A stretch of 64,000 nucleotides of DNA from positions 1,364,001-1,428,000 of the forward strand of contig NZ_JNLL01000001.1 of NCBI RefSeq assembly GCF_000703085.1, read 5' to 3'. The notes under the pieces were generated by a model. That model was not told the origin of the DNA and made no database searches. It saw only the letters and a list, made by a program, of their open reading frames with translations. How positions within the stretch are numbered: position 1 is the first letter of the stretch; the number at the start of each line of letters is the position of its first letter. Source of the stretch: Persephonella sp. KM09-Lau-8 (GTDB lineage: Bacteria; Aquificota; Aquificia; Aquificales; Hydrogenothermaceae). A program made the position numbers and the translations under genes. Shown here piece after piece: positions 38,115-52,276 of the stretch.

Positions 38115-38741
38115 TTAGAAGTTCTCTAAGAGTTTTTCTAAGTTGCTCTGTCTAATTTTCCCTAAAATTCTGTTTACATACTTTCCGAGAATATCAAACT
38201 CAATATTTACCTTATCTCCTATTTTTTTATACTGAAGAGTTGTGCTTTGTAATGTGTGGGGAATTATATTTATGGAGAAACTATTCTCGCTGATTTCATT
38301 TATAGTAAGACTGATACCGTCTATTGCTATTGAGCCTTTTTCCACAATTAGATTGGAATATTCAGAAGGAAATGAAAAAATAAACTCTGTATGCTCTCCT
38401 CTGGGGGTAATATTTCTGATTTCTCCTACAGTATCTACATGACCCTGAACTATATGCCCTCCAAGTCTGTCTGAAGGTCTTAACGCCCTTTCCAGATTTA
38501 CATAATCGCCTATTTTCAGATATCGGAATGTTGACCTGTTCAGAGTTTCTGGGGATACATCAAATTTGAAATAATTATCTCCCAGTTCTGTTATTGTTAA
38601 GCAGACTCCGTTTATTGCAATACTATCTCCTATCTGGGAATCTTCAAGGATTTTCTTTGCAGAAACTTTTATTTCTATACCATTGACTTGTGGTTTTATT
38701 TCCTGTATTTTACCAATTTCCTCAATCAGTCCGGTAAACAT
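38115..38741 (-). CDS. ribE: Riboflavin synthase alpha chain
   Basis: A 208-residue protein of two lumazine-binding barrels. It begins MFTGLIEEIGKI, with IAINGVCLTI in barrel 1 and IAIDGISLTINEI in barrel 2. LGGHIVQGHVDTVG is conserved. It dismutates dimethylribityllumazine to riboflavin. It overlaps the lytic transglycosylase gene by one base. The archaeal-type reductase at 6211 is the only other riboflavin gene seen in the window. Confidence 0.96.
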   Translation of the reverse strand: MFTGLIEEIGKIQEIKPQVNGIEIKVSAKKILEDSQIGDSIAINGVCLTITELGDNYFKFDVSPETLNRSTFRYLKIGDYVNLERALRPSDRLGGHIVQGHVDTVGEIRNITPRGEHTEFIFSFPSEYSNLIVEKGSIAIDGISLTINEISENSFSINIIPHTLQSTTLQYKKIGDKVNIEFDILGKYVNRILGKIRQSNLEKLLENF

Positions 38742-40513
38742 TATTTTCTTCCATATATTGTCTGGTATGCTTTGTAGTTTGTATAAACATATTTTACATA
38801 ATACCTTGTTTCTCTGTAAGGTAAAAGTTCAACAAATTCTTCAATATTTTTTATTTCGTATCTTTTTAGAGTTCTTCTTACTGTCCCATCACCACCATTA
38901 TATCCACCTGCAATATAAAATATATTGCCTTTAAACATTCTGTCTAAGTATTTTAAATACCATCTGCCATATTCTATATTTTTGGAAGGTTCAAAAAGCT
39001 GGACAATATCAAAATTTCTGTCTTTTTTCTGCTGAGCTATCCATCTGGCAGTAGGAGGAATTATCTGCATAAGCCCAACAGCATTAGCAAAGGAAACAAC
39101 ATAAGGGTCAAAAAAGCTTTCTCTTCTCATAATGGCATAGGTTAAATTGTCGGTGGCATATTTTAAGAATGGTTTTGGATATGCATAACGGACAAGATAT
39201 TTCCTGTCTGATAATTTTCTGGCAGCAAGTTCAGGGAAAACCGCAGCAATAGATTCTACTCCGTGTTTTTTCATAAAATATCTGGCTTCTATATAAGCAG
39301 CTTTGTAATCTATAGGTTTAAGCTTTGCAATCATATCAAGGGTTTTGCTCTGATAGAATTTCAGGAACATAGGTTTTCCTTCAAATAATGGTAGTCCTAA
39401 TTTTTCTCTGGCTCTGATTACATAGAAATCTATTTTTTTGATTGAAGCAGCTTTTTTTAAATATTTATAGGCTTTTGTTCTGTTTATGTCTTTGTAGGAT
39501 AAATATAGCCAGTAATAGACTTTGGGCTTTTCTGAGAAATATCTTATATTTTTTTCCAAAATTTCTGCTGCTTTGTTTTTCTTCCCATGTATATAGTAAT
39601 AAAGGGACAAAAACCATAGCTTATTTGAGTAATATCTGCTTTTTTCCGGAATAAATTGTGAATAGTAGAAAAAATCTTTATATTTTTGGAGATAAAAACT
39701 TTTTTTCATCAGATAGTTTGCTGCCTTCCAGATTAACTTTTTGTCATTGTATTTCAATAGCTCTTTAAAATACTTTTTTTTCTCTGACATTTTTCTCTGG
39801 AAGAAAATATATGAATAGACTGCAGAAGCTCTATACTTACCTTTTAGCAGAGAAATAAAATATTCAGCCTTCTGGTATTCCCTATTTTTCATATACAAAA
39901 GAGCACTATAAAGATATTTTTTCTGCCCATCTTTAATATATGGAAGCAGATATATTGCCTTTGTGAACATCCTTTTTGCTGCAAGTCTGTCTAAAACATT
40001 AAATTTTTCTTCTTCAGATAAAATATTGATATTCTCAAAAACCACAGGATATCCATAAAACCTATCGTAAGGGAAATAAAGAGATATTTTTTTAGCTTCT
40101 TTTATAGGGTCTTTTTTTAAAGACTTATCAATCTGGTATTTTAAATAGTAGTAAAAGGGAATATCATCCTTAAAAAGTGCCTCTTTGTCTATTTTTGACC
40201 AGTATTCAAGGGCAAGCTTAGGGTTTTTAAACCTGTTTATAGAAGCAAGATATAGATAAAAATAGCTATAAACAGCTGTATTCTTAAATTTTTCCATTTC
40301 AGGTAATAAATCTGAATAGTCTTCTTCTGCATAAACTCTGGTTCGAAGCAAATAATAAAGTGCATAAGGATATAAAGGGTCTGTCTGATTTATCTGAGAA
40401 AAGCACTGTTTAGCCTGTAAATATCTCTCTTTCTTGAAAAAATCAATACAATCCTCAAAGGCAAGGGATATTTTTGTAATTATAAGCAGTAAAATAATTA
40501 TTTTTTTCATCAT
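38741..40513 (-). CDS. Soluble lytic murein transglycosylase (SLT family)
   Basis: A 590-residue exported protein. It has a signal peptide (MMKKIIILLLIITKISLAFE), a long helical superhelix of TPR-like units (about 20-430) and a C-terminal SLT domain (about 440-590). The catalytic Glu is in IMRRESFFDPYVVS, followed by AVGLMQIIPPTARWIA and YNGGDGTVRRTLKRY. It cleaves peptidoglycan to anhydromuropeptides. Its ATG overlaps the kinase stop by 4 bases, so it is cotranscribed with the sensor genes. Confidence 0.93.
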   Translation of the reverse strand: MMKKIIILLLIITKISLAFEDCIDFFKKERYLQAKQCFSQINQTDPLYPYALYYLLRTRVYAEEDYSDLLPEMEKFKNTAVYSYFYLYLASINRFKNPKLALEYWSKIDKEALFKDDIPFYYYLKYQIDKSLKKDPIKEAKKISLYFPYDRFYGYPVVFENINILSEEEKFNVLDRLAAKRMFTKAIYLLPYIKDGQKKYLYSALLYMKNREYQKAEYFISLLKGKYRASAVYSYIFFQRKMSEKKKYFKELLKYNDKKLIWKAANYLMKKSFYLQKYKDFFYYSQFIPEKSRYYSNKLWFLSLYYYIHGKKNKAAEILEKNIRYFSEKPKVYYWLYLSYKDINRTKAYKYLKKAASIKKIDFYVIRAREKLGLPLFEGKPMFLKFYQSKTLDMIAKLKPIDYKAAYIEARYFMKKHGVESIAAVFPELAARKLSDRKYLVRYAYPKPFLKYATDNLTYAIMRRESFFDPYVVSFANAVGLMQIIPPTARWIAQQKKDRNFDIVQLFEPSKNIEYGRWYLKYLDRMFKGNIFYIAGGYNGGDGTVRRTLKRYEIKNIEEFVELLPYRETRYYVKYVYTNYKAYQTIYGRK

Positions 40514-42093
40514 ATCCTGAAATCAATGATAAATGCTGTTCCTTTTCCTTTTTCTGATTCCATACTTATCGCTCCATTATGGCTAAAAACAATTTTATAA
40601 ACCATAGGTAATCCTAAACCTGTGCCCTTTTGTTTCGTTGTAAAGAAAGGTTTAAAAATCTTATCCTTATTTTCTGGTTCTATTCCCTCGCCATTATCTT
40701 CGATTATTAACCTTGCTATATCTTTATCCTTTAGTTTTATATATTCGGTTTTTATTCTTATAAATTTATCACCTTTTTTATCTTTCAGGGCATCGATACT
40801 GTTCAAAATCAGATTGAAAATCATCTGTTTTATTAGATTTTTATCAAATTCAAATTCGGGCATATCTGGATCTGTTTCAATGATAAGCCTGATCCCTTCA
40901 TCATCCATATCGGGTTTTAGAAGCATAACAGAATTCTTTATTTCTTCATTTATATCTCCTTTTTGAAATTTAGGTTCTATAAGTTTTGAAAAATTCAAAA
41001 AGGATACAGTCATTTTATTGAGTCTATTAACTTCATCTTTTATTATCCCTGAAAATTCTTTAACCAGTTCATTGTCTATATTCTGCCTTAAGTAGTTTGC
41101 TGCATTTCCGATTGCATAAAGAGCATTCTTTATCTCATGGGCTATTTTTGCACTCATTTCTCCCATTGTTGCCATACAGTTTAAAGTTTCTCTTTCTCTA
41201 TGGGCCTCATCTAATTTTCTTAAATATTCTTTCAGAGAAGCTACCATCATATAAAAGGAGTAATTTAACTGTCTTATTTCGTCTCCAGAAAGCTGTTTAA
41301 ACTTTTCACAGGAAGAACATTCCTTTAAAGCAGTATCTCCTATATTAAGAAGGATCTCTCCCCCTTTTTCAGAAGTGAGCCAGCATTCTGATGTTAATGA
41401 TTTGATACAATCTTTATCATTTTGGGGCACAGGCTCCACATCCAACTTAGAACTATCTATGTATGAACCTGTAATTTCTGTAATCTTATTTTTCAGATCT
41501 ATTAAAGGTTTAACCATATGTCCTGAAATAAGAAACACTCCTAAAAATGATGCAATAATTACCATAGATGCTATAGCAAAGGTTTGAACTAAAATCTTAA
41601 ATATCTCTCTATCTATTGATTCTTTGAGGGTTTTCAGGTCATGTCTTGTAATTACATACCCTATCGTATCAGAGTCAATTTTTACCGGATAATAGAATGA
41701 GATAATATTTTTATCTTTTTTGATATAAGGTTTATCGGGAATCTTTTTTAAAAAATCTTTTTCTGTTTTGCCTAAATTAGATAAATCTATATCTCCAATA
41801 ATTCTTCCTCCTGTATCAAATACTTTCACAAAAAATACAGAAGGTAAATTGTCTATCTTTCTGGTCATTTCATCTATTTTTTCAAGATTTTTCAGGACAA
41901 AACTGTCTTTATAACTTTCAATTATATTTTTTATGTTTTCGATGATATTTTGATTTTTTTCTTTAAGTAGTTTCTGTTCAAAGCTATAAGCAGTATAAAA
42001 AATAGCTCCAACAAGAACAAGAAGTATATAAAATGAAGTGGCCAGAGCAACTTTCCATCGTATAGATAAATTTCTAAAAGGATTTATTCTCAT
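40510..42093 (-). CDS. Membrane sensor histidine kinase with Cys-rich insert in the HAMP region
   Basis: 527 residues. TM1 is at about 14-34, then a periplasmic PAS-like/dCache-like sensor (about 35-165), TM2 at about 168-190 and HAMP. An insert with C229, C237 (ECW), C259 and C262 (CSSC) follows, then HisKA with His319 in AKIAHEIKNALYAIGNAANY. The HATPase_c domain has NLILNSIDALKD, EDNGEGIEPENKDKIFKPFF and GTGLGLPM. The Cys cluster could bind metal or sense redox. Similar CxnCW..CxxC inserts occur in deltaproteobacterial sensors. It is 3 bases after the PhnD-like gene. It probably phosphorylates the regulator at 44007. Confidence 0.9.
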   Translation of the reverse strand: MRINPFRNLSIRWKVALATSFYILLVLVGAIFYTAYSFEQKLLKEKNQNIIENIKNIIESYKDSFVLKNLEKIDEMTRKIDNLPSVFFVKVFDTGGRIIGDIDLSNLGKTEKDFLKKIPDKPYIKKDKNIISFYYPVKIDSDTIGYVITRHDLKTLKESIDREIFKILVQTFAIASMVIIASFLGVFLISGHMVKPLIDLKNKITEITGSYIDSSKLDVEPVPQNDKDCIKSLTSECWLTSEKGGEILLNIGDTALKECSSCEKFKQLSGDEIRQLNYSFYMMVASLKEYLRKLDEAHRERETLNCMATMGEMSAKIAHEIKNALYAIGNAANYLRQNIDNELVKEFSGIIKDEVNRLNKMTVSFLNFSKLIEPKFQKGDINEEIKNSVMLLKPDMDDEGIRLIIETDPDMPEFEFDKNLIKQMIFNLILNSIDALKDKKGDKFIRIKTEYIKLKDKDIARLIIEDNGEGIEPENKDKIFKPFFTTKQKGTGLGLPMVYKIVFSHNGAISMESEKGKGTAFIIDFRI

Positions 42094-42096
42094 AAT

Positions 42097-42915
42097 CTAC
42101 TGTATTAATGGATATTGGGATAGTATATCATTATAGTCCTTTACTATCCGAAACATCTCAGGTTTTGGTTTTTCAAAACCATCAATCCCTATTTTCTTAA
42201 GAAGTTCTTGATCTTTTAGGGAAAACAATGCTGTTCTTATCTGTTTTTGTAGTTTTTGTGGTAAAGATTCATTTATCACAACTATATATCTTGGAACATA
42301 TGGAGAGCGAGCAATAATTTTAATTCCATGATCTAAAAATCCAAAAGCACTTTCTTCCTTAACCCCTGCCGCATCTGCAAGACCGGATAATACTGATAGT
42401 ATTGCAGCTCTATCACTTCCAGAACTCCACATATCAGATATATCCGTGTATTTAATGCCATTTTTACTGAGAACATAAAGGGGCATTATACAATTACTGG
42501 CACATATACTACTGCCAAGGGTTATCTTTTTACCCTTAAGGTCATTAACAGAATTTATTTCTCCGTCCTTCCTGACAACAATAACTCCAGCTTCTAAAAC
42601 ATGACCTCGAATTTTTATAACTGCTGAAGCATCAACCTTATGTTTTTCCAATATTTTGTAATAAACAACTGGACAGACTATAGATATATCAACAAAATGT
42701 TCATCATAATACCTTAGTAAATTTTCATATCTACCAAATATTTTAAGCTCTATTTTTTTGTTTAATCTTTTCTCCAAATACTGAGATAGATTCTTAAATC
42801 TTTTATATTCTTCAACAGGGTTACCAGAAGAAAGAACGGCCAGAAGTAGCCGTTCAGAAGCTAAGGAGGAAAAAACCATAAAGAAAAATAATAAGAAAAC
42901 TGTAGCAAATCTCAT
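42097..42915 (-). CDS. PhnD-type periplasmic binding protein (putative sensor partner)
   Basis: 272 residues with a signal peptide (FATVFLLFFFMVFSSLASE) and the phosphate/phosphite/phosphonate-binding family layout: AVLSSGNPVEEYKRFKNLSQ, KIELKIFGRYENLLRY, VDISIVCPVVYYKILEK, GVIVVRKDGEINSVNDLKGK and LSVLSGLADAAGVKEESAF. Two Cys in SSICASNCIMPLY are unusual. No ABC permease or ATPase gene accompanies it, and it sits between DsrE-like genes and a kinase, so it probably presents a ligand to the kinase. It overlaps the DsrE-like gene by 4 bases. Confidence 0.85.
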   Translation of the reverse strand: MRFATVFLLFFFMVFSSLASERLLLAVLSSGNPVEEYKRFKNLSQYLEKRLNKKIELKIFGRYENLLRYYDEHFVDISIVCPVVYYKILEKHKVDASAVIKIRGHVLEAGVIVVRKDGEINSVNDLKGKKITLGSSICASNCIMPLYVLSKNGIKYTDISDMWSSGSDRAAILSVLSGLADAAGVKEESAFGFLDHGIKIIARSPYVPRYIVVINESLPQKLQKQIRTALFSLKDQELLKKIGIDGFEKPKPEMFRIVKDYNDILSQYPLIQ

Positions 42916-43424
42916 TTTTGCTTACCATATTTCTTTTTTACAGGTTCAAAATCATTAACTACAGCCGGAACAAGACGATATCCTTCTTCCTGTAGTGCTG
43001 CCAGTTTTGCAACCCCTGCTGGTGTGAGTATCACAAAGGAAGGGAAATCTTCTTTATCAAAACCGAAAGCCTTTGCAGCGTTATAACAGATGTAGAACTT
43101 AACACCATAGGAACCATGAAAGTTTTTAATCCTCTCAACTATTTTTTTGAAATATTTTTCATTCTGTTTGGCGAAAACAGGGATTTCTGCACCATGACTG
43201 ACAACAACTATCTCAATCTCTTCCAATGGCGCATACTGGTTATATGCTTTTATATGGTTACTGATAAAATTTAAGGCCTTATCCACATCTTCAGGTTTGG
43301 ATAGATTCCAGTCATATACAACCTTTATTGAAGGATATGTGCTGTCAGACACTTCCAGATTTGCACCCTTTTCTGCTGCAAATACCATTGAAACAAAAAC
43401 CATAAAAGCAATTAATACTCTCAT
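42912..43424 (-). CDS. Secreted DsrE-fold protein
   Basis: 170 residues. A signal peptide (MRVLIAFMVFVSMVFA) is followed by a DsrE/DsrF-like domain. It contains IKVVYDWNLSKPEDVDKAL, IEIVVVSHGAEIPVFA, the conserved Cys113 in GVKFYICYNAAKAFG, and TPAGVAKLAALQEEGYRLV. The single Cys lies where DsrE-family proteins bind sulfur. An exported form next to a sensor kinase and near sox suggests binding of a periplasmic sulfur compound. It is 12 bases from its paralogue at 43437. Confidence 0.8.
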   Translation of the reverse strand: MRVLIAFMVFVSMVFAAEKGANLEVSDSTYPSIKVVYDWNLSKPEDVDKALNFISNHIKAYNQYAPLEEIEIVVVSHGAEIPVFAKQNEKYFKKIVERIKNFHGSYGVKFYICYNAAKAFGFDKEDFPSFVILTPAGVAKLAALQEEGYRLVPAVVNDFEPVKKKYGKQK

Positions 43425-43436
43425 TTCAAACCCTCC

Positions 43437-43904
43437 TTACTGGAAAACCATGTATGCATATCCTTTGTTTTGCCAGTTAACAAGACCAACAAGTGCGGAA
43501 TAAACAGGTTTCACAAATGAATAGATATTATCCTCAGATATTCCTCTTGCTTTCATCCCTGCCTTACACATCTCAAATCTTACCCCGTAAAATTTCACCA
43601 GATTTTCCAATCTTTCTTTTAACTCCTTCTGTTTTTTCTTAAGCTGAATATCATCCTTATAAGGTGATTTATCTAAATTTTTTATGAAAAATTTATACCC
43701 ATCTCCATGCACCACTACCACGACTTTTAACTCCTTAAGGTTGTCCCTGTAATACTGGATATTGTTTGCAAGACCATTTATCAGATAGTTTTCAAAGATA
43801 TGTAGATCACCTGAACGAAAGTCAATAACTACTTTTGCTACCTCATCTTCTCCACGGGATAAAGAAGTAATAAAAAGAAAAATCAACAAAATAAACTTTT
43901 TCAT
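43437..43904 (-). CDS. Secreted DsrE-fold protein, paralogue
   Basis: 155 residues. It has a signal peptide (MKKFILLIFLFITSLSRGED) and the same domain plan as its neighbour: AKVVIDFRSGDLHIFENYLI, LKVVVVVHGDGYKFFI, Cys113 in GVRFEMCKAGMKARGI, and YSALVGLVNWQNKGYAYM. The Cys falls at the same residue number in both proteins. It is the first gene of the DsrE-DsrE-PhnD-kinase operon, with GGAGGATGCT before the ATG. The two may work as a pair, like DsrE/DsrF. Confidence 0.8.
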   Translation of the reverse strand: MKKFILLIFLFITSLSRGEDEVAKVVIDFRSGDLHIFENYLINGLANNIQYYRDNLKELKVVVVVHGDGYKFFIKNLDKSPYKDDIQLKKKQKELKERLENLVKFYGVRFEMCKAGMKARGISEDNIYSFVKPVYSALVGLVNWQNKGYAYMVFQ

Positions 43905-44006: not shown

Positions 44007-45338
44007 ATGGGTTACAGAGTTTTATTAATTGATGATGAAAAAAGTATCCTTAAGGTAATTAAAAAGTTCCTTGAAGACCAGAATTTTCAGGTAACAACTG
44101 CTGAAAACAAAAAAGAGGCTTTAAAACAGATTACAGCAAAGAGATTTGATATTATCTTGAGCGATTACAGACTCCCAGATGGAACAGGAATGGAAATTCT
44201 TCAGTATTTTAGGGAAAGGGACAAAGAAACTCCCTTTGTTATGATAACCGCCTATGGCTCAATAGATGGTGCCGTTGAAGCTATGAGAAAAGGAGCATCC
44301 CATTACGTATCAAAGCCTATTGATGCAGAGAATCTCCTTAAGATTATTCATTTTCTTATTGAAAAAAATGAAAAAAATGGTTTTGAGAATATGGAAGAGT
44401 TTGCAGGAATAATAGGAAAATCTCCACTAATGAGAGAACTTTTTAAAGAGATAGATATTGTAAGTAAAAGCGAATCAACAGTGCTAATAGAAGGAGAAAG
44501 CGGAACAGGAAAAGAACTTGTAGCAAAGGCAATACATAAACTATCCTCCAGAAAGGACAAACCATTTGTTGCCCTGAACTGTTCTGCAATTCCGGTGGAA
44601 CTTTTTGAAAATGAACTGTTTGGTCATGAAAAAGGAGCTTATACCGGTGCAACAGGTAATGCAAAAGGAAAAATAGAACTGGCTGCAGATGGAACATTAT
44701 TTTTAGATGAAGTTGGAGAGTTAGATACCATATCACAGGCTAAGCTTTTGAGGGTTTTGCAGGAAAAAGAATTTTACAGACTTGGAGGAACAAATACTGT
44801 TCCTGTAAGATGTAGAGTTATTGCAGCTACTAACAGAGACCTTGAAAAAATGGTCTCTGAAGGAAAATTTAGAGAGGATTTATTTTACAGAATTAATGTG
44901 GTTCATCTAAAAGTCCCTCCCCTCAGAGAAAGGAAAGAGGACATTCCATTGCTGGCAAAACATTTTCTAAAAAAATACAGCCAGATAAACAGGAAAAATA
45001 TTGTTGATATTGATAAAGATGCAATGGAAGTCCTTATGAATTATGAATGGAAAGGCAATGTCAGGGAGCTTGAAAATGCCATAGAAAGAGCAGTTGTGAT
45101 GTGTCAGTATGATGTAATTACCACAGAACATCTTCCTCCGAGAATAACTAAAAATAAAGCAAACAGTTCAACTCCAGAAATATCCGGAGAACTAAATCTC
45201 TTTGAACTTGAAAAAAGGGTGATACTAAAAGTTCTTGAAGAAACAAACTGGAATCAGACAAAAGCAGCACAAAAACTGGGGATATCAAGAAAACAACTTA
45301 GAACAAAGATGAAAAATTTCGGTCTGCTCCAGGCCTGA
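44007..45338 (+). CDS. Sigma-54-dependent response regulator (NtrC family)
   Basis: 443 residues. The receiver domain (about 1-120) has IDDE, the phospho-Asp in LSDYRLPDGTG, and Lys in VSKPID. The AAA+ domain (about 140-370) has Walker A GESGTGKE, the sigma-54 contact loop GAYTGA, and Walker B GTLFLDEVGEL. A C-terminal Fis-type helix-turn-helix (NWNQTKAAQKLGISRKQLR) follows. ATG 44007 has AAGGAGCAGACC before it. Its gene ends one base before a palindrome pair and a sigma-54 promoter upstream of soxX, so it is very probably the activator of the sox operon, paired with the kinase at 40510. Confidence 0.95.
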   Translation: MGYRVLLIDDEKSILKVIKKFLEDQNFQVTTAENKKEALKQITAKRFDIILSDYRLPDGTGMEILQYFRERDKETPFVMITAYGSIDGAVEAMRKGASHYVSKPIDAENLLKIIHFLIEKNEKNGFENMEEFAGIIGKSPLMRELFKEIDIVSKSESTVLIEGESGTGKELVAKAIHKLSSRKDKPFVALNCSAIPVELFENELFGHEKGAYTGATGNAKGKIELAADGTLFLDEVGELDTISQAKLLRVLQEKEFYRLGGTNTVPVRCRVIAATNRDLEKMVSEGKFREDLFYRINVVHLKVPPLRERKEDIPLLAKHFLKKYSQINRKNIVDIDKDAMEVLMNYEWKGNVRELENAIERAVVMCQYDVITTEHLPPRITKNKANSSTPEISGELNLFELEKRVILKVLEETNWNQTKAAQKLGISRKQLRTKMKNFGLLQA

Positions 45339-45339
45339 T

Positions 45340-45355
45340 TGTCCCATTTGGGACA
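45340..45355 (+). promoter_or_regulatory. Upstream activator site 1 (palindrome)
   Basis: TGTCCCATTTGGGACA is a near-perfect 16-bp dyad just after the regulator's stop codon. It is about 120 bases upstream of the -24/-12 promoter, as expected for an NtrC-type enhancer. With the following AGTCCCTTTTTT it might also act as a weak terminator of the regulator gene. Confidence 0.75.
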
Positions 45356-45372: not shown

Positions 45373-45388
45373 TGTTCCGTTTGGGACA
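45373..45388 (+). promoter_or_regulatory. Upstream activator site 2 (palindrome)
   Basis: TGTTCCGTTTGGGACA matches site 1 at 14 of 16 positions and begins exactly 33 bases later, about three helical turns. Both sites would face the same side of the DNA for cooperative regulator binding. Confidence 0.75.
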
Positions 45389-45459: not shown

Positions 45460-45478
45460 TTGGCACATCTGTTGCTAT
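45460..45478 (+). promoter_or_regulatory. Sigma-54 (-24/-12) promoter of the sox operon
   Basis: TTGGCAC-ATCTG-TTGCT matches the RpoN consensus, with the GG and GC dinucleotides 12 bases apart. It lies about 30 bases upstream of the soxX start and downstream of two enhancer-like palindromes, completing a classical sigma-54 architecture. Confidence 0.88.
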
Positions 45479-45508: not shown

Positions 45509-46027
45509 ATGAAGTATCTATACCTGCTTTTATCAGGTATCCTGATGATATCTGTCTTTTCTACAAATTCAAAAGCCGGACAGATTCAGTTTGAGCATCC
45601 TGATGCAAAAGAAATCATGCTCAAAGATATTCCGCCGGGACCAAGGCATTATGCAATTCCGTCTAACTGCAAACTGGACAATCCAGAATTTATTAAAAAG
45701 ATGGCACCTATCGGCAAAAAGCTATTTAACAACAAAAAAGCTGCAAACTGTGTTGCATGCCACTGTGCTCCCGGTTCTGTAGGTTGTGGGAATATAGGAC
45801 CAAATCTTGCCCATTACAAAAACACCCTTATGAAAGCACCTTATCTGGGAGGTCAGAAAAAGACAATTTCATGGCTTTACCAGAGAATTGCAGATTACAG
45901 GGTTCAGATTCCACCTAAGTATAAAAAAGAACCTTATTTCAACATAATGACAGTTAATCTCACAACTGGAAAGCTTACATACGACGATGTATGTGCCCTA
46001 ACTGCATTTCTTCTCTCTCTGGAGTAA
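45509..46027 (+). CDS. soxX: SoxX, monohaem cytochrome c of the SoxAX complex
   Basis: 172 residues with a Sec signal peptide (YLYLLLSGILMISVFSTNSK). One c-type haem motif CVACH is at about residue 82, then GNIGPNLAHYK, a WLYQRIADYR region and a C-terminal LTYDDVCALTAFLLSL. Spacing fits SoxX, which with SoxA attaches thiosulfate to SoxY. Two extra Cys (CHCAPGSVGC) follow the haem motif, and another is near the end. ATG 45509 lies 8 bases after GAGGAGG; GTG at 45503 is too close to that site. It is the first gene under the -24/-12 promoter. Confidence 0.92.
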   Translation: MKYLYLLLSGILMISVFSTNSKAGQIQFEHPDAKEIMLKDIPPGPRHYAIPSNCKLDNPEFIKKMAPIGKKLFNNKKAANCVACHCAPGSVGCGNIGPNLAHYKNTLMKAPYLGGQKKTISWLYQRIADYRVQIPPKYKKEPYFNIMTVNLTTGKLTYDDVCALTAFLLSLE

Positions 46028-46030
46028 AAG

Positions 46031-46468
46031 ATGAGAAAAGTGGTTCTTCTATTTTTCTTAATGGCAGGAATTTCTTACGCAGATATTAAGTGGCTATCTC
46101 TGGAAGATGGATTTTCCAGAGCTCAAAAAGAAAAAAAGATAGTTCTGATTTATATCTACTCCCCAAAATGCCATTACTGTAAAAAAATGGAAGCAACCAC
46201 ATTTAAATCCCCACAGGTACAGGAAATAGTAAATAAATATTTCATTCCTGTAAAAGTCCGTAAATGTAGTGAAGATGGGGCATTTGTAAAAGAAGAATAC
46301 GGATATCTGGGAACACCTACATTCCATTTTGTTAAACCTGACGGCACAAAAATAAAGAGTCTTTTTGGAGCGTGGAGTAAAGAAGAGTTTCTGAAAATAC
46401 TCAGATATTTCTACGCCGGAGCATACAAACAAAAATCCATGAATGAATTTTTTACAGAAGAAAAATAA
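46031..46468 (+). CDS. Exported thioredoxin-fold protein (SoxW-like)
   Basis: 145 residues. A signal peptide (VVLLFFLMAGISYA) is followed by a thioredoxin domain with the redox motif CHYC in IYSPKCHYCKKMEATTF, the cis-Pro segment YLGTPTFHFVKPDG, and FGAWSKEEFLKILRYF. It resembles SoxW and related DUF255-like thioredoxins. It probably keeps the SoxY Cys or SoxA persulfide in the right state. It is 3 bases from soxX and 12 bases from soxY. Confidence 0.85.
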   Translation: MRKVVLLFFLMAGISYADIKWLSLEDGFSRAQKEKKIVLIYIYSPKCHYCKKMEATTFKSPQVQEIVNKYFIPVKVRKCSEDGAFVKEEYGYLGTPTFHFVKPDGTKIKSLFGAWSKEEFLKILRYFYAGAYKQKSMNEFFTEEK

Positions 46469-46480
46469 AGGAGGTCAAAG

Positions 46481-46939
46481 ATGAAAAGGAGAGATTTTCT
46501 TAAAGTAGCCGCTGCCACAGGAGCAGTGATGCTGGTAAGTCCTTCGGTGATGGTAGATAGCTTTCAGGCCAGAGCTGAGCTGAGGAAAAGAAGTTTTGAG
46601 GAAGCTTTAAAGGAAATCACAAAAGGTAAAACACCTGTAGAATCCAAAGAAGTAAAGCTCATAGCACCATCAATTGCAGAAAATGGTGCAGTAGTTCCAA
46701 TTAAAGTTGAGGTGGCAAAACCAATAGAAGATGTAAAGGCAATTCATATCTTCGCAGACAAGAACCATGACCCCTGGTCGTGTAGCATCCATTTTACGCC
46801 GCAAAATGGAAGACCTTATTTTGCAACAAGGATAAGACTGGCTAAGACAATGAATGTTTATGCCGTTGCCGAGCTTAAAGATGGCTCATTTATCATGGCC
46901 AAAAAGCCAATCAAAGTAACAATCGGTGGATGTGGATAA
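46481..46939 (+). CDS. soxY: SoxY, sulfur-carrier subunit
   Basis: 152 residues. A Tat signal (MKRRDFLKVAAATGAVMLVS) exports it folded. The immunoglobulin-like SoxY domain follows, with NHDPWSCSIHFTPQNG and YFATRIRLAKTMNVYAVAEL. The C-terminus is VTIGGCG, carrying the substrate-binding Cys on the GGCGG swinging arm, here with the last Gly missing. With SoxZ it holds the sulfur intermediates of thiosulfate oxidation. Confidence 0.94.
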   Translation: MKRRDFLKVAAATGAVMLVSPSVMVDSFQARAELRKRSFEEALKEITKGKTPVESKEVKLIAPSIAENGAVVPIKVEVAKPIEDVKAIHIFADKNHDPWSCSIHFTPQNGRPYFATRIRLAKTMNVYAVAELKDGSFIMAKKPIKVTIGGCG

Positions 46940-46961: not shown

Positions 46962-47291
46962 ATGGGTAGAACAGCATTAATCAAAGTAAAACCAAGAAGA
47001 TATAAAAAAGGAGACATAATCAGGATAGATTCGGTGATTATGCATCCTATGCACACAGGTTTAGTAAAAGATAAGAAAACAGGGAAAATCATCCCTGCCC
47101 ACTATATAAACAAGGTAGAAGTTTATTACGGAAATGACCTTGTTACAACAATTGATGTTAATGCCTCTGTAAGTGCGAATCCATACTTTTCCTTTTATCT
47201 AAAGGCAGATAAAGCAGCTCCATTAAAAATGGTATGGAAGGACAATAAAGGAGAAGTTACAGAGAAGACTATTCAGATTAAACCACAATAG
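46962..47291 (+). CDS. soxZ: SoxZ, SoxY partner
   Basis: A 109-residue soluble protein without a signal peptide, expected to be co-exported with SoxY. It begins MGRTALIKVKPRRYKKGDII and has the family motifs HPMHTGLVKDKKTGKIIPAH, VYYGNDLVTTIDVNASVSAN and PYFSFYLKAD. Length and motifs are normal. AAAGGAGGAAATAAAA precedes the ATG. Confidence 0.95.
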   Translation: MGRTALIKVKPRRYKKGDIIRIDSVIMHPMHTGLVKDKKTGKIIPAHYINKVEVYYGNDLVTTIDVNASVSANPYFSFYLKADKAAPLKMVWKDNKGEVTEKTIQIKPQ

Positions 47292-47302: not shown

Positions 47303-48103
47303 ATGAAACTCAAATATATTGGTATGCTTGGCTTATGTATAGGTCTTACCTCTGGTGTTATCGCAGAGGAGGCAGGTCAGGCAATATCTGAGGAAGACTG
47401 GAAGTTGTATCAGGAAGGAATCAATCCGGGAGAAGTTTTTGCAGAAGAGGTTGGAGGGAGTCTGTTTGAAAAACCAATGGGTCCTAAAAATATATCCTGT
47501 GCCTCATGCCATACGAAAAATGGTGCAGTTGAAGACCGAGTAGCAACGGCAGCGGCTTATTATCCTAAATATGATAAAGATGCAGGAATGATAATCAATC
47601 TGGAGCAGAGAATACAGATATGCCAGAGCAAACATATGGATATGAAACCTTTCTCCCTAAAAAGTAAAGAAAATACAGCCCTTACAACATATCTCTACTA
47701 TCTGGCACAGGGAACAAAAATTAATGTTGATACAAAATCTCCTATAGCAAAGGAATACCTGAAATACGGCAGATACATATTTACTTTGAAAAGAGGTGTA
47801 AGAAATCTATCCTGTCAGGTATGCCATGAATTTGCAGCAGGAAAAGTTCTTAGAATGCAACATCTAAAACCCCTTGGATTTGAATATAACGGAATAAAAG
47901 GAACCACTGCCGCAGACCACTGGCCTGCTTTCAGAATGACCAAAAACAAAGTTCAGACACTTCAACAGAGATTTCAGGGATGTCAGAAACAGGGAGGTCA
48001 GAAAAAACTGCCCCTTGGTTCAAAAGAGATGGTTGCCCTTGAACTATACGTAAAATCACTTTCCAACGGAGCAGAACTTAAAACTCCTGGGTTAAGGAGA
48101 TAG
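47303..48103 (+). CDS. soxA: SoxA, dihaem cytochrome c
   Basis: 266 residues with a signal peptide (YIGMLGLCIGLTSGVIAEE). There are two haem motifs, CASCH (about 66) and CQVCH (about 173), and the C-terminal Cys in RFQGCQKQGG at about 227, which in SoxA is the persulfide ligand of the active-site haem. It is the catalytic half of SoxAX, joining thiosulfate to SoxY. The presence of both haems puts it in the dihaem SoxA class. It is 11 bases after soxZ and 10 before soxB. Confidence 0.94.
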   Translation: MKLKYIGMLGLCIGLTSGVIAEEAGQAISEEDWKLYQEGINPGEVFAEEVGGSLFEKPMGPKNISCASCHTKNGAVEDRVATAAAYYPKYDKDAGMIINLEQRIQICQSKHMDMKPFSLKSKENTALTTYLYYLAQGTKINVDTKSPIAKEYLKYGRYIFTLKRGVRNLSCQVCHEFAAGKVLRMQHLKPLGFEYNGIKGTTAADHWPAFRMTKNKVQTLQQRFQGCQKQGGQKKLPLGSKEMVALELYVKSLSNGAELKTPGLRR

Positions 48104-48113
48104 GGAGGCAAAG

Positions 48114-49853
48114 ATGAATTTAACAAGAAGGGATTTTCTTGAGCTTGCGGCAATAGCCGGTTTATCGCTGGCAAGTGGTAATGCCCTTGCACAATTAAGC
48201 AAACTTTCACCTGAAAAATTAATGGAATTTAAACCTGTAGGTAATGTAACACTGCTGCATATATGCGACATGCATGCCCATCTCAAGCCATTATACTGGA
48301 GAGAACCATCAACCCTTTTATCTCATCCATCCCTTGTAGGAAATCCCGGATTTTTATGCGGTGAGGCTTATTTGAAATATTACGGTATAAAGCCAGGAAC
48401 ACTAAGAGCTTACTTTGATACCTATATTGATTTTCCTGAACTTGCCCATAAATACGGGAAAATGGGTGGTGTTGCTTATATGGCAACCCTTGTAAAACAG
48501 ATAATTGCAGAAAGAGGCAAAGATAAAGTTCTGTTTATGGATTCAGGGGATACATGGCAGGGCACAGCTGTTGCACTGTTTACAAAGGCAAAGGCAATAG
48601 TAGATGTCCAGAATGCTCTCGGAATAGATGTTATGGTGGGACACTGGGAGTTCACATACGGCAAAGAAAGGGTTCAGGAATTGGTTGAGAACCACCTTAA
48701 AGCTGATTTTATAGCCCAGAATATTTCTGACCAGATGTGGGAAGAATTAGTATTTTCTCCTTATGTAATAAAAGAGGTTGGCGGTGTAAAAATAGGAATT
48801 ATAGGAAATGCATTCCCATACACACCGATTGCAAATCCTAAACAGTTTACAGAAGGCTGGAGTTTTGGTATTCAGCCTGAAAGACTCCAGCAGTTTGTAG
48901 ATGAGCTTAGAAACCAGAAAAAAGTTGACCTTGTTGTTTTACTTTCCCATGATGGTTTCGCATTAGACCAGGCATTAGCAAAAATGGTAAAAGGAATAGA
49001 CATAATATTCAGTGGCCATACCCATGACCCATCTCCAAAACCGATTTTTGTCAATAACACTATGATTGTTATTGCTGGGTCACACGGTAAATATTTAGGC
49101 AGATTAGACCTTGATGTAAAAAACGGCAAGATTAGAAAGTGGAATTACAAACTGATACCAATAGCTTCCAACTTTATCAAACCTGACCCTGATATGCAAA
49201 AACTTGTTGAGTCTATATACAAACCTTATGAGAAAAAACTTTCACAAAAACTGGCTAAAACAGAACAGATCCTATACAAGAGGGACACATTCTACTCAAC
49301 ATTTGACAGGGTAATTAGCGAGGCAATCAAAGAAGAAACAGATGCAGAAATAGTATTCACTCCTGGATATCGCTGGGGAACAACAATCTTACCCGGTGAA
49401 GATATAACAGTTGATAATGTTTATGAGATGACAGCCATTACATATCCAGATGTTTACACATTTGAGATGACAGGTGAAAAACTGAAAATGATTCTGGAAG
49501 ATGTTGCAGACAACGTATTTAACAAAAATCCACTTTATCAACAAGGTGGAGATATGAGCAGACTATTAGGAGTTGAGTATGAGATTAAACTGGGGGCACC
49601 TGCAGGTAAAAGACTCAGGAATATTAAAGTAAACGGTAAAGATTTAGACCCAAAAAGGTCTTATGTGATATCAGCATGGGGTGGAAATCTCTACAAAGCA
49701 GGAACAAAGGTAAGACCAGAGCACAGACCTGTCTATGATATTGTAATTGACTATTTAAAAAGACATAAAACGGTTAATCCACCACTCCAGTCAAACGTTA
49801 AAGTGCTGGATGTGAAATGTGGATGTCCACGAAAAGGAGGTATATGCACTTGA
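48114..49853 (+). CDS. soxB: SoxB, Mn-dependent sulfate thiohydrolase
   Basis: 579 residues with a Tat signal (RRDFLELAAIAGLSLASGNA). The 5'-nucleotidase-like metallophosphoesterase domain has LHICDMHAHLKPLYW, MDSGDTWQGTA, VGHWEFTYG, LLSHDGFALD and FSGHTHDP. The C-terminal nucleotidase domain follows. It hydrolyses the SoxY-bound sulfone to release sulfate. No soxCD follows in this window, so the last sulfur atom may be handed to another route. Its stop overlaps the next gene. Confidence 0.96.
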   Translation: MNLTRRDFLELAAIAGLSLASGNALAQLSKLSPEKLMEFKPVGNVTLLHICDMHAHLKPLYWREPSTLLSHPSLVGNPGFLCGEAYLKYYGIKPGTLRAYFDTYIDFPELAHKYGKMGGVAYMATLVKQIIAERGKDKVLFMDSGDTWQGTAVALFTKAKAIVDVQNALGIDVMVGHWEFTYGKERVQELVENHLKADFIAQNISDQMWEELVFSPYVIKEVGGVKIGIIGNAFPYTPIANPKQFTEGWSFGIQPERLQQFVDELRNQKKVDLVVLLSHDGFALDQALAKMVKGIDIIFSGHTHDPSPKPIFVNNTMIVIAGSHGKYLGRLDLDVKNGKIRKWNYKLIPIASNFIKPDPDMQKLVESIYKPYEKKLSQKLAKTEQILYKRDTFYSTFDRVISEAIKEETDAEIVFTPGYRWGTTILPGEDITVDNVYEMTAITYPDVYTFEMTGEKLKMILEDVADNVFNKNPLYQQGGDMSRLLGVEYEIKLGAPAGKRLRNIKVNGKDLDPKRSYVISAWGGNLYKAGTKVRPEHRPVYDIVIDYLKRHKTVNPPLQSNVKVLDVKCGCPRKGGICT

Positions 49854-50470
49854 TTAAAAAAGTATTCTCTATGGTTTTGTTAATAGGACTGCTGTTAAAC
49901 CTTACTGGCTGCGTGACAGCTATGGAATGGTCTACCAGAGATGAGGATGATGATGAATATATACCACCTAAAAAAGTGGTTGCAACAAAAGAAAAACCTC
50001 AGAAAACATCTAAAAACCATAGGGGATACAACCCTGCTCCTGTTGATGAAGAGGAAGAAGAGATCCCTGACATATACGAATCAACAGTTAACATGAGCAT
50101 GGAAGAGGCAGATCTCCTGATAAAATCTGCCCTTGAAGAAGCAAATTTCAAAATTATTAAAGTTTCCCATGTAACAAAAGGTATGGAGGAGCAGGGAAGA
50201 AAGGATTTCTGGAAAGATATGAATATATATCTGATATGCAAATTATCAGATGGTTATTTTGTTCTCAGGCACAATCCCCAGCTTGTAGGATTTTGTCCAT
50301 ACAGGCTTTACACATACAGAAATAAAGATGGCCTTCTAATTATAGGAATGGTAAAGCCCTCAATAGCAATAAGATATATGGGAAATCCTGACCTTAAGGC
50401 TATTGAGATCCTTAAAAGACATGATATGCAGCTAAAAAAAATAATAGATGAGATTACTTCTAAATATTGA
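49844..50470 (+). CDS. DUF302-like lipoprotein in the sox operon
   Basis: About 206-208 residues. It has a lipoprotein signal (LLLNLTGC) and an acidic, low-complexity linker (DEDDDEYIPP, DEEEEEIPDI). The DUF302-like domain (about 90-205) has MSMEEADLLIKSALEEANF, IYLICKLSDGYFVL, GFCPYRLYTY and IAIRYMGNPDLKAIEILKRH. The start is ATG 49844 or, with better 9-base spacing from GGAGG, TTG 49850. The TTG overlaps the soxB stop as TTGA. Function unknown, but it is locked into the sox transcript. Confidence 0.8.
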   Translation: MHLIKKVFSMVLLIGLLLNLTGCVTAMEWSTRDEDDDEYIPPKKVVATKEKPQKTSKNHRGYNPAPVDEEEEEIPDIYESTVNMSMEEADLLIKSALEEANFKIIKVSHVTKGMEEQGRKDFWKDMNIYLICKLSDGYFVLRHNPQLVGFCPYRLYTYRNKDGLLIIGMVKPSIAIRYMGNPDLKAIEILKRHDMQLKKIIDEITSKY

Positions 50471-50484
50471 GGAGGTTTAGAGAG

Positions 50485-51738
50485 ATGAAAAAAGTTGGTT
50501 TAACAGTGGCATCATTAACAGCAGTGGCATTAATAACAGGGACAGCAAATGCCGGTCCTAAGTTCTACTTTGGAGAAGGTAAAGACCTGGAGATTTTCCT
50601 TATGGGACAGATATGGGGCATTTACGGAACAAATGTTGATGTACCCGGTGCAACAGGACTGAAGGAGAACAAAGGAGATATATACATCAGAAGAGGTAGA
50701 TTTGGATTTAAAGGACATCTTATGAAAAATCTGTCTTGGAAGATTTGGTTTGCCCACGACAACCTTGGTAGAGATGACCTAAACCCTGTTGATATTGCAA
50801 GGGGTGCTGTAAAAACTACGGGACTTACATACTCAAAATTTGAGGTCTGGGATGCCTATTTCACATGGTCTTATGATAAAACATGGGCAAACTTCTCTTT
50901 AGGATACTTTAGACCACAAATAGGAAAAGAAAGTATCACATCAGGTTTTGCAGTCTTATCCTTTGAAAAAGGACTTCCAAACTTCTATGTAAGAAGACAT
51001 ATTATTGGGAAACCAGATAAAGGAGATAATGAAGTCCTTGGAAGATCTTCAGTAAACGGAAGAATATTCCTTATAAACTGGGGTGGTCTTTATAAATCGC
51101 AGGGCTGGAGCCTTAACTGGAACCTTGGTGTAGGTGACAATCAGAATTACACAGATTCTAAAAACTGGTCTCCTTTAGTGTCTGCAAGAGTTGCCGTTTC
51201 AATCGGGGACCCGGAAATGAAAAAATACAAATTAGGCTATAAGCAAACATATTTTGGAAAAAGGCATGGTATCACTTTAGGCTTAAACTATGCTCATCAG
51301 GGAGAAGGTATTGATAGAAAGGCTGGTAGCAGCGGAAAGGAATTTGACAAAAATGAAATGTATGGTGCAGATATACTTGCAAACTACGGTCCTGTAGATT
51401 TTGTGGCTGAATATGATATTCTCAAAAGAGACTGGTCTGATGGCACAGATTATACAGATAAAGTCTGGCAAATAAAAGCAGCCTATAACTTTAAACTTGG
51501 GAATGGTCAGATAGTTCAACCTGCAGTATCTTACGGTGTATTTGATCCTGACAACAATGGAAATTCCATTTATAAGAAAAAGAAAAATACAAACTGGGAT
51601 GTTGGTATAAACTGGTATATCCAAAAACAAAGGGCAAAAGTAATTCTCCATTATACTTCCGGAAAAGTTGAAAACTATAGAAATGGACAGGATGCAAAAG
51701 CTTCTTATGTAGGCCTTGGATTCCAGTTCAAAATTTAA
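50485..51738 (+). CDS. Outer-membrane porin (phosphate-selective porin O/P-like)
   Basis: 417 residues with a signal peptide (VALITGTANA, cut near 26) and alternating beta strands of a 16- to 18-strand barrel (FYFGEGKDLEIFLMGQIWGI start, ASYVGLGFQFKI end with terminal aromatic strand). Basic residues are frequent in the loops. It could admit anionic sulfur compounds such as thiosulfate; this is inferred from its place in the sox operon. ATG 50485 follows GGAGGTTTAGAGAG. An in-frame start at 50467 would precede that site. Confidence 0.88.
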   Translation: MKKVGLTVASLTAVALITGTANAGPKFYFGEGKDLEIFLMGQIWGIYGTNVDVPGATGLKENKGDIYIRRGRFGFKGHLMKNLSWKIWFAHDNLGRDDLNPVDIARGAVKTTGLTYSKFEVWDAYFTWSYDKTWANFSLGYFRPQIGKESITSGFAVLSFEKGLPNFYVRRHIIGKPDKGDNEVLGRSSVNGRIFLINWGGLYKSQGWSLNWNLGVGDNQNYTDSKNWSPLVSARVAVSIGDPEMKKYKLGYKQTYFGKRHGITLGLNYAHQGEGIDRKAGSSGKEFDKNEMYGADILANYGPVDFVAEYDILKRDWSDGTDYTDKVWQIKAAYNFKLGNGQIVQPAVSYGVFDPDNNGNSIYKKKKNTNWDVGINWYIQKQRAKVILHYTSGKVENYRNGQDAKASYVGLGFQFKI

Positions 51739-51757
51739 AATTTCTGGAGGCTAAAAG

Positions 51758-52276
51758 ATGAGAAAATTTCTTACTGTTTTTTTGCTTTTGATAAGTTTAA
51801 ACCTGATAACTTTAGCAGAAGAAAAAAATACAAAAAAATCCCCTCCCCAGAAACTCAGTTCCGGGGAAGGATTCATAATCTATAAGGTAGAGATGGATGC
51901 AGATGAGGCCGTCCAGATTTTAATGGAAAATCTAAAAGCCCACCAGTTGACTGTAGTGGATATAACAGACCCATCTGCCCCATTAAGTAATAATATTAAG
52001 ATATTTCCTGATTTTGACAAACTAAAGGTGTCTTATATTCAGAACATACTTGTAACCAGTATAACAACCCTTTATAAGATTTTTACCGTTGACCCTAACG
52101 CTATGGTTTTATCTCCATGGGTTGTGTCCATATACCAGTATGAAGATGATGATTATAGCTATATTGTCAGAACAAAATCTCATCTTCTCCTAAAAGGCAC
52201 ATCTCACCCTGAAGTGATAAAAGCTGTAAAAGAATTGGAATCACGAATAGATGCGGCAATTGCCGACCTGCTGTAA
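51758..52276 (+). CDS. DUF302-like secreted protein, last gene of the sox operon
   Basis: 172 residues with a signal peptide (FLTVFLLLISLNLITLAEE). A domain like DUF302 follows, with FIIYKVEMDADEAVQILMEN, ILVTSITTLYKIFTVDPN and MVLSPWVVSIYQYEDDD. It is probably related to the lipoprotein at 49844, with the porin between them, so the two may be envelope partners in sulfur oxidation. Function unknown. Transcription meets murE head-on 8 bases later. Confidence 0.8.
   Translation: MRKFLTVFLLLISLNLITLAEEKNTKKSPPQKLSSGEGFIIYKVEMDADEAVQILMENLKAHQLTVVDITDPSAPLSNNIKIFPDFDKLKVSYIQNILVTSITTLYKIFTVDPNAMVLSPWVVSIYQYEDDDYSYIVRTKSHLLLKGTSHPEVIKAVKELESRIDAAIADLL

Follow-up and report, generated by a model that had tools for sequence, protein, structure and literature searches.

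A candidate three-component sigma-54 switch beside the sox operon of Persephonella and other Hydrogenothermaceae

We identified in Persephonella and related genera a putative three-component sigma-54 switch that probably controls the sox operon and that consists of a periplasmic PhnD-fold binding protein, a sensor histidine kinase and an NtrC-family response regulator. Two secreted DsrE-fold proteins, DsrE1 and DsrE2, are encoded together with the sensor in Persephonella but would be linked to sox and not obligatory for sensing. A sequence-only reading of this DNA had proposed a periplasmic sensor controlling sox, and this proposal is well supported by the conserved gene triad, by a UAS of published type together with a sigma-54 promoter at soxX, by the co-occurrence with soxB and by arsenite oxidase (AioA) not exceeding its model cut-off in this genome.

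Gene organization and regulatory sites

The window, i.e., the whole 64,000 nt stretch analysed, belongs to a 2.07 Mb genome with Persephonella, family Hydrogenothermaceae, as its closest kin. According to the ORF listing, the genes of DsrE1, DsrE2, the PhnD-like protein and the kinase follow each other in this order on the minus strand, with gaps of 12, -4 and 3 bases; ORFs and Pfam assignments agree with the order, coordinates and spacings first claimed. That account had omitted the sigma-54 response regulator gene (44007-45338), which is divergent from DsrE1 and located directly upstream of the sensor operon, as well as the UAS and promoter and an overlap with slt. The features are the following (positions in the window):

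38741-40513, slt (lytic transglycosylase), 4-base overlap with the kinase gene
40510-42093, minus strand, TspS-like sensor histidine kinase (S; Pfam HisKA, HATPase_c)
42097-42915, minus strand, PhnD-fold sensory binding protein (X; Pfam PF12974, PDB matches)
42912-43424, minus strand, DsrE2, secreted DsrE-fold protein, 4-base overlap with the PhnD start (Pfam DsrE)
43437-43904, minus strand, DsrE1, secreted DsrE-fold protein, heading the sensor operon here (Pfam DsrE)
44007-45338, plus strand, TspR-like NtrC-family response regulator (R; Pfam receiver, sigma-54 AAA+ and HTH_8)
45340-45355, UAS1, palindrome TGTCCCATTTGGGACA, reverse complement of the Acidithiobacillus caldus TspR UAS TGTCCCAAATGGGACA
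45373-45388, UAS2, palindrome TGTTCCGTTTGGGACA, 33 bp from UAS1
45461-45476, plus strand, perfect -24/-12 sigma-54 promoter TGGCACATCTGTTGCT, upstream of soxX
45509-46027, plus strand, soxX, first gene of the putatively controlled operon (TIGR04485 above cut-off)
46031-46468, plus strand, secreted thioredoxin-like protein within the sox operon (Pfam)
46481-46939, plus strand, soxY (TIGR04488 above cut-off)
46962-47291, plus strand, soxZ (TIGR04490 above cut-off)
47303-48103, plus strand, soxA (Pfam SoxA-TsdA_cyt-c)
48114-49853, plus strand, soxB (TIGR04486, 859 bits)
49817-52276, plus strand, sox operon tail with a DUF302 lipoprotein-like protein, a Porin_O_P porin and a conserved secreted protein

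Beyond the kinase gene, slt is followed by ribE (both within 38115-40513); this neighborhood and the 4-base overlap of slt indicate that the sensor operon may extend further, so that in Persephonella one transcript may cover the sensor together with cell-wall and riboflavin genes. The flanking genes that were scanned include neither an ABC permease nor an ATPase, in line with the initial description. Signal peptides had been assigned to all three small proteins; by inspection and hydropathy (threshold 1.6 mean hydropathy), a signal-peptide-like hydrophobic N-terminal stretch is present in each, that of DsrE1 lying below the threshold.

Both UAS palindromes and the -24/-12 promoter are located between the regulator gene and soxX. 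Read on the other strand, UAS1 matches letter for letter the UAS TGTCCCAAATGGGACA reported for TspR, the sox regulator of A. caldus (PMC6335251), and the -24/-12 element at 45461-45476 is the sole site with 0 mismatches within the window. With at most one mismatch allowed for the UAS and likewise for the sigma-54-like site, 21 of the 22 Hydrogenothermaceae loci with enough upstream sequence have a UAS ahead of soxX, and a sigma-54-like site is positioned 56-145 bp past it. There was no UAS at the Aquificaceae soxX genes checked, and the UAS sites remote from sox yielded no clear second target.

Several Hydrogenothermaceae, one of them without sox, also have a UAS-like palindrome immediately past the 3′ end of a conserved methyltransferase gene (L037:5524-5595, L053:4813-4884, L040:5134-5217 and L051:4494). 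It is accompanied by a sigma-54-like site in three genomes, and two lack an obvious target gene.

Conservation across Aquificota

The search covered 136 Aquificota genomes for the kinase sensor region, soxB, PhnD, DsrE1 and the UAS; the regulator and DsrE2 were sought in the 41 Hydrogenothermaceae genomes. Among the 136 genomes, PhnD and the kinase sensor region had close orthologs in Hydrogenothermaceae only. Within this family, PhnD is present in 25/29 soxB-positive versus 1/12 soxB-negative genomes (Fisher p = 4.6e-6) and DsrE1 in 25/29 versus 0/12 (Fisher p 2.3e-7), p-values that are optimistic because shared ancestry of the sequences makes them overstate independence. A location mostly remote from sox, which would have refuted the sequence-only reading, does not apply to PhnD and the kinase. 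The PhnD and kinase genes are adjacent, and usually overlapping, in every genome with both, save where a contig breaks between them. The regulator gene is found near this pair, in divergent orientation in Persephonella-like genera and in Sulfurihydrogenibium within a single operon in the order PhnD-kinase-regulator; regulator orthologs (at least 65%) co-occur with sox in Hydrogenothermaceae.

Three genomes depart from this pattern. G069 (99% complete) has sox, the regulator and the UAS and no PhnD or kinase ortholog, and G073 (85% complete) has PhnD without soxB. In G101, sox is present, PhnD, kinase and regulator were all not found, and its locus is the lone exception to the UAS upstream of soxX among the 22 loci; the circuit seems to have been lost naturally in this genome, which is a draft assembly. 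A TnpB-like gene is located between soxX and the expected promoter region of G101 (L086:16386-18050), and a UAS pair is found on a different contig beside a second TnpB-like copy (L087:1-900).

The PhnD-fold protein and its pocket

The PhnD-like protein reaches 160.5 bits with the Pfam model Phosphonate-bd (PF12974, cut-off 27), and its sequence and predicted structure (pLDDT 89) match PtxB, ArrX, HtxB and AioX. In the predicted model, C81 caps helix 82-91 and C138 caps helix 139-151, which places both cysteines at the modeled anion-binding helix tips of this fold. C81 aligns with a Cys in ArrX and, in PtxB, with the Gly of the GP motif; as assigned through these two alignments, it takes the position of AioX Cys106, the residue that binds arsenite (PMC5908839). 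C138 stands where the S-T/N-S motif has its first Ser, i.e., a Cys in place of a ligand Ser. Among the orthologs whose sequence covers the respective columns, C81 is invariant in 25/25 and C138 in 26/26, and C142 is kept in 23/26; aligned PtxB-type transport proteins have no cysteines of the C81/C138 type.

The AioX pocket set Tyr88, Tyr131, Ser161, Ser163, His192 and Asp210 is mostly not kept in the ArrX alignment: Ser161 is exchanged for C138, His192 for D168 and Tyr131 for L107, and Ser163 (S140) is the only clearly retained residue besides the Cys. The Tyr at position 63 of the PhnD-like protein is variable within the family. With several of the AioX/PhnD ligand residues changed, the ligand may differ. 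It is therefore highly improbable that the triad is an AioXSR-type arsenite sensor that merely neighbors sox, even though the gene make-up is identical, a Cys occupies the Cys106 position and some Hydrogenothermaceae genomes have arsenite oxidase: the triad tracks soxB, the UAS is located at soxX, and AioA (TIGR02693) is over cut-off in 3/41 family genomes and not in the window genome, on which ground arsenite sensing was set aside.

A function in phosphonate or phosphite ABC transport was rejected, as the scanned neighbors include no partner genes and the scores remain under the NCBIfam cut-offs (TIGR01098, 90.8 versus 112.05; TIGR03431, 81.8 versus 261.1). Plasmid matches to the PhnD-like protein share 25-28% identity and are mostly annotated as PhnD/PtxB substrate-binding proteins. 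The PhnD profile matched solely Hydrogenothermaceae among the genome contigs, in a scan with strict motifs that leaves room for distant PhnD relatives.

The sensor kinase

The kinase contains HisKA and HATPase_c domains (Pfam) and two hydrophobic segments (residues 11-39 and 163-198), two TM segments flanking an extracytoplasmic domain. For this domain a PAS/cache fold is predicted, nearest to the extracytoplasmic domains of WalK and CitA; the Pfam model sCache_3_2 gave no score on the kinase, and the published TspS carries an sCache domain (PMC12194929). Comparison of the kinase sensor region with plasmids gave no match. Given an extracytoplasmic sensor fold of its own, the kinase might sense directly via its cache domain, as has been suggested for TspS of A. 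caldus, and the PhnD-like protein would then be a leftover of ABC transport. In line with this, the regulator is kept in G069 without PhnD, and published TspS works without any reported PhnD partner. Nevertheless, we consider such a leftover decidedly unlikely in view of the position of PhnD beside the kinase across genera, the lack of permease and ATPase genes among the neighbors, the scores short of the NCBIfam transport cut-offs and the lineage-specific invariant cysteines.

The cytoplasmic linker of the kinase holds the invariant pattern C229-x7-C237-W ... C259-x2-C262 (residues 229-262), and C306 is near the phosphorylated His (H-box). A metal, Fe-S or thiol role of the linker cysteines is only a guess, since the structure model is poor in that region. 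These residues would gain a function if the PhnD-like protein were a thiol-based sulfur sensor in which C81 and C138 trap sulfane sulfur or thiosulfate covalently (or as persulfide/trisulfide), with optional delivery by DsrE and with the Cx7CW...Cx2C region of the kinase as a second, redox- or metal-gated input, amounting to a two-compartment check before sox induction; we hold this scenario to be doubtful.

DsrE1 and DsrE2 are linked to sox

DsrE1 and DsrE2 score 64.4 and 47.1 bits, respectively, with Pfam DsrE (cut-off 22.7). The sequence-only reading had noted a single Cys at residue 113 in both; it is indeed the only Cys of each protein and is invariant in 24/24 orthologs of each. DsrE2 matches the PDB structure of MTH1491 with the Cys aligned. 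A weak fifth DsrE-family open frame of 178 aa is located elsewhere in the genome (L041, G000:C1:1335702-1335884).

The placement of the two genes shifts between genera (g2-g7 denote other Hydrogenothermaceae genera). The sensor operon starts with DsrE1-DsrE2 in Persephonella and g3 and with DsrE2 without DsrE1 in g4, g5, g7 and part of g2, and DsrE1 is far away and standalone in g2, g4 and g5. The sox operon tail is the site of DsrE1/DsrE2 in sister genera, both genes being located there in Sulfurihydrogenibium. In the tail of Sulfurihydrogenibium and g6, a gene for a secreted metallo-beta-lactamase-like protein parts porin/DsrE2 from DsrE1 (L079:4002-5949, L082:1645-2562, L083:12976-13908), and a cytochrome-peroxidase-like gene is also found between the DsrE genes in some cases (L079). 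The pairing of DsrE2 with PhnD recurs in most Hydrogenothermaceae genera, and this recurrence, like the adjacency of PhnD and the kinase, speaks against a chance arrangement.

The initial description had made the DsrE proteins part of the sensing relay. In such a relay, DsrE1/DsrE2 would load sulfane sulfur on Cys113 and pass it to the cysteines of the PhnD-like protein and on to the kinase, the four proteins forming one obligatory sensor, a reading to which the contiguous operon in Persephonella and g3, the invariant lone Cys of each DsrE protein together with the pocket Cys of PhnD, and the overlap of the DsrE2 and PhnD genes in several genera lend some appeal. However, the sensor is present without DsrE1 in G080 and without DsrE2 in G078 and G079; G101, in which the sensor genes were not found, keeps both DsrE genes; and the genes move to the sox tail in Sulfurihydrogenibium or, for DsrE1, to a distant site in g2, g4 and g5. 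The relay is thus unlikely, and the genome distribution contradicts DsrE as an obligatory sensor part. Because of this shifting placement and of a presence and absence decoupled from the sensor, DsrE1 and DsrE2 are best read from the genomic pattern as sox-linked accessory proteins that follow sox and not sensing. They probably carry sulfane sulfur or thiosulfate from one Sox protein to another and perhaps buffer the signal.

Proposed switch and its significance

In the three-component switch that we propose, the PhnD-fold protein would bind a periplasmic inorganic sulfur anion with the pocket cysteines taking part. From the comparative evidence, thiosulfate would be the likeliest ligand and our first choice, given the absence of arsenite oxidase from the window genome, the AioXSR precedent and the thiosulfate sensing by ThsS. 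By analogy to AioXSR, the loaded protein would dock on the PAS/cache domain of the kinase and stimulate autophosphorylation, and from genetic linkage and co-occurrence we infer that the kinase would phosphorylate the divergently encoded TspR-like regulator. By extension from A. caldus TspR, the regulator may then bind both UAS palindromes, upon which the -24/-12 promoter of soxX-trx-soxYZAB would open.

External sulfur compound sensing by sulfur oxidizers is described as poorly understood (PMC11582611). The candidate sensor is a small, soluble protein, separate from the kinase, from a thermophile, and the system has a defined promoter, and therefore ligand, docking and transcription are each assayable with purified proteins. 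The prediction is a thiol-dependent site that binds a sulfur anion. More generally, the arrangement suggests one exchangeable layout of binding protein, kinase and regulator for arsenic and sulfur lithotrophy.

Comparison with known systems

DsrE1 and DsrE2 share the fold, the conserved Cys and a score above the gathering cut-off with the DsrE/DsrF family (PF02635; MTH1491, DsrEFH). Unlike DsrEFH with its three cytoplasmic subunits DsrE, DsrF and DsrH, they are two secreted, separate single-Cys proteins, and no DsrH/TusB-type subunit is encoded nearby.

ThsS and TtrS are sensor kinases for thiosulfate and tetrathionate, respectively, with a PhnD-type sensing domain (PMC5408782). A PhnD-type domain serving a kinase is common to both cases, in ThsS/TtrS for a sulfur oxyanion. 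There the domain is fused to kinases that control reductases in Shewanella and Salmonella, whereas here the PhnD-like protein is separate, the kinase has a sensor domain of its own and the controlled process would be sox oxidation; since the domain is not fused to the kinase, we did not file the system as ThsS/TtrS.

In AioXSR, ArxXSR and ArrXSR, a PhnD-fold periplasmic sensor, a kinase and a response regulator are encoded by the enzyme that they control; the binding proteins of this type bind the substrate of that enzyme, and the Aio and Arx regulators are sigma-54 regulators of the AtoC type (PMC5908839). The X-S-R triad, the lack of transporter genes and the Cys at the AioX Cys106 position are shared. 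The system described here differs in its putative control of sox, its UAS of the TspR type and the lack of an AioA over cut-off in the genome, and its binding protein differs from AioX in a second invariant Cys for a ligand Ser and in further changed ligand residues. With mismatches in both the ligand residues and the arsenic enzyme, it was not filed as AioX.

TspS/TspR activates sox in A. caldus (Li et al. 2017, as summarized in PMC6335251 and PMC12194929). The shared features are a sigma-54 response regulator and a cache-type kinase beside a soxXYZA-B operon, and the identical UAS TGTCCCAAATGGGACA with a sigma-54 promoter at soxX; we found a receiver/sigma-54 AAA+/HTH_8 regulator by sox, UAS and -24/-12 elements at soxX and a cache-fold kinase with HisKA and HATPase_c. 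The letter-for-letter match of the UAS and its conservation before soxX assign the kinase-regulator-sox circuit to the known TspSR kind. Compared with TspS/TspR as reported in these two papers, the kinase operon here adds a separate PhnD-fold protein and two secreted DsrE proteins.

The open-access literature searched contained no description of the exact combination, the paired pocket cysteines or the DsrE companions. With TspS/TspR, AioXSR and ThsS/TtrS as close precedents, the earlier statement that no system of such make-up had been described was too strong. Since the DsrE proteins are sox helpers that belong to the sensor operon only sometimes, we regard the system as a new combination of known parts and not as a wholly new one.
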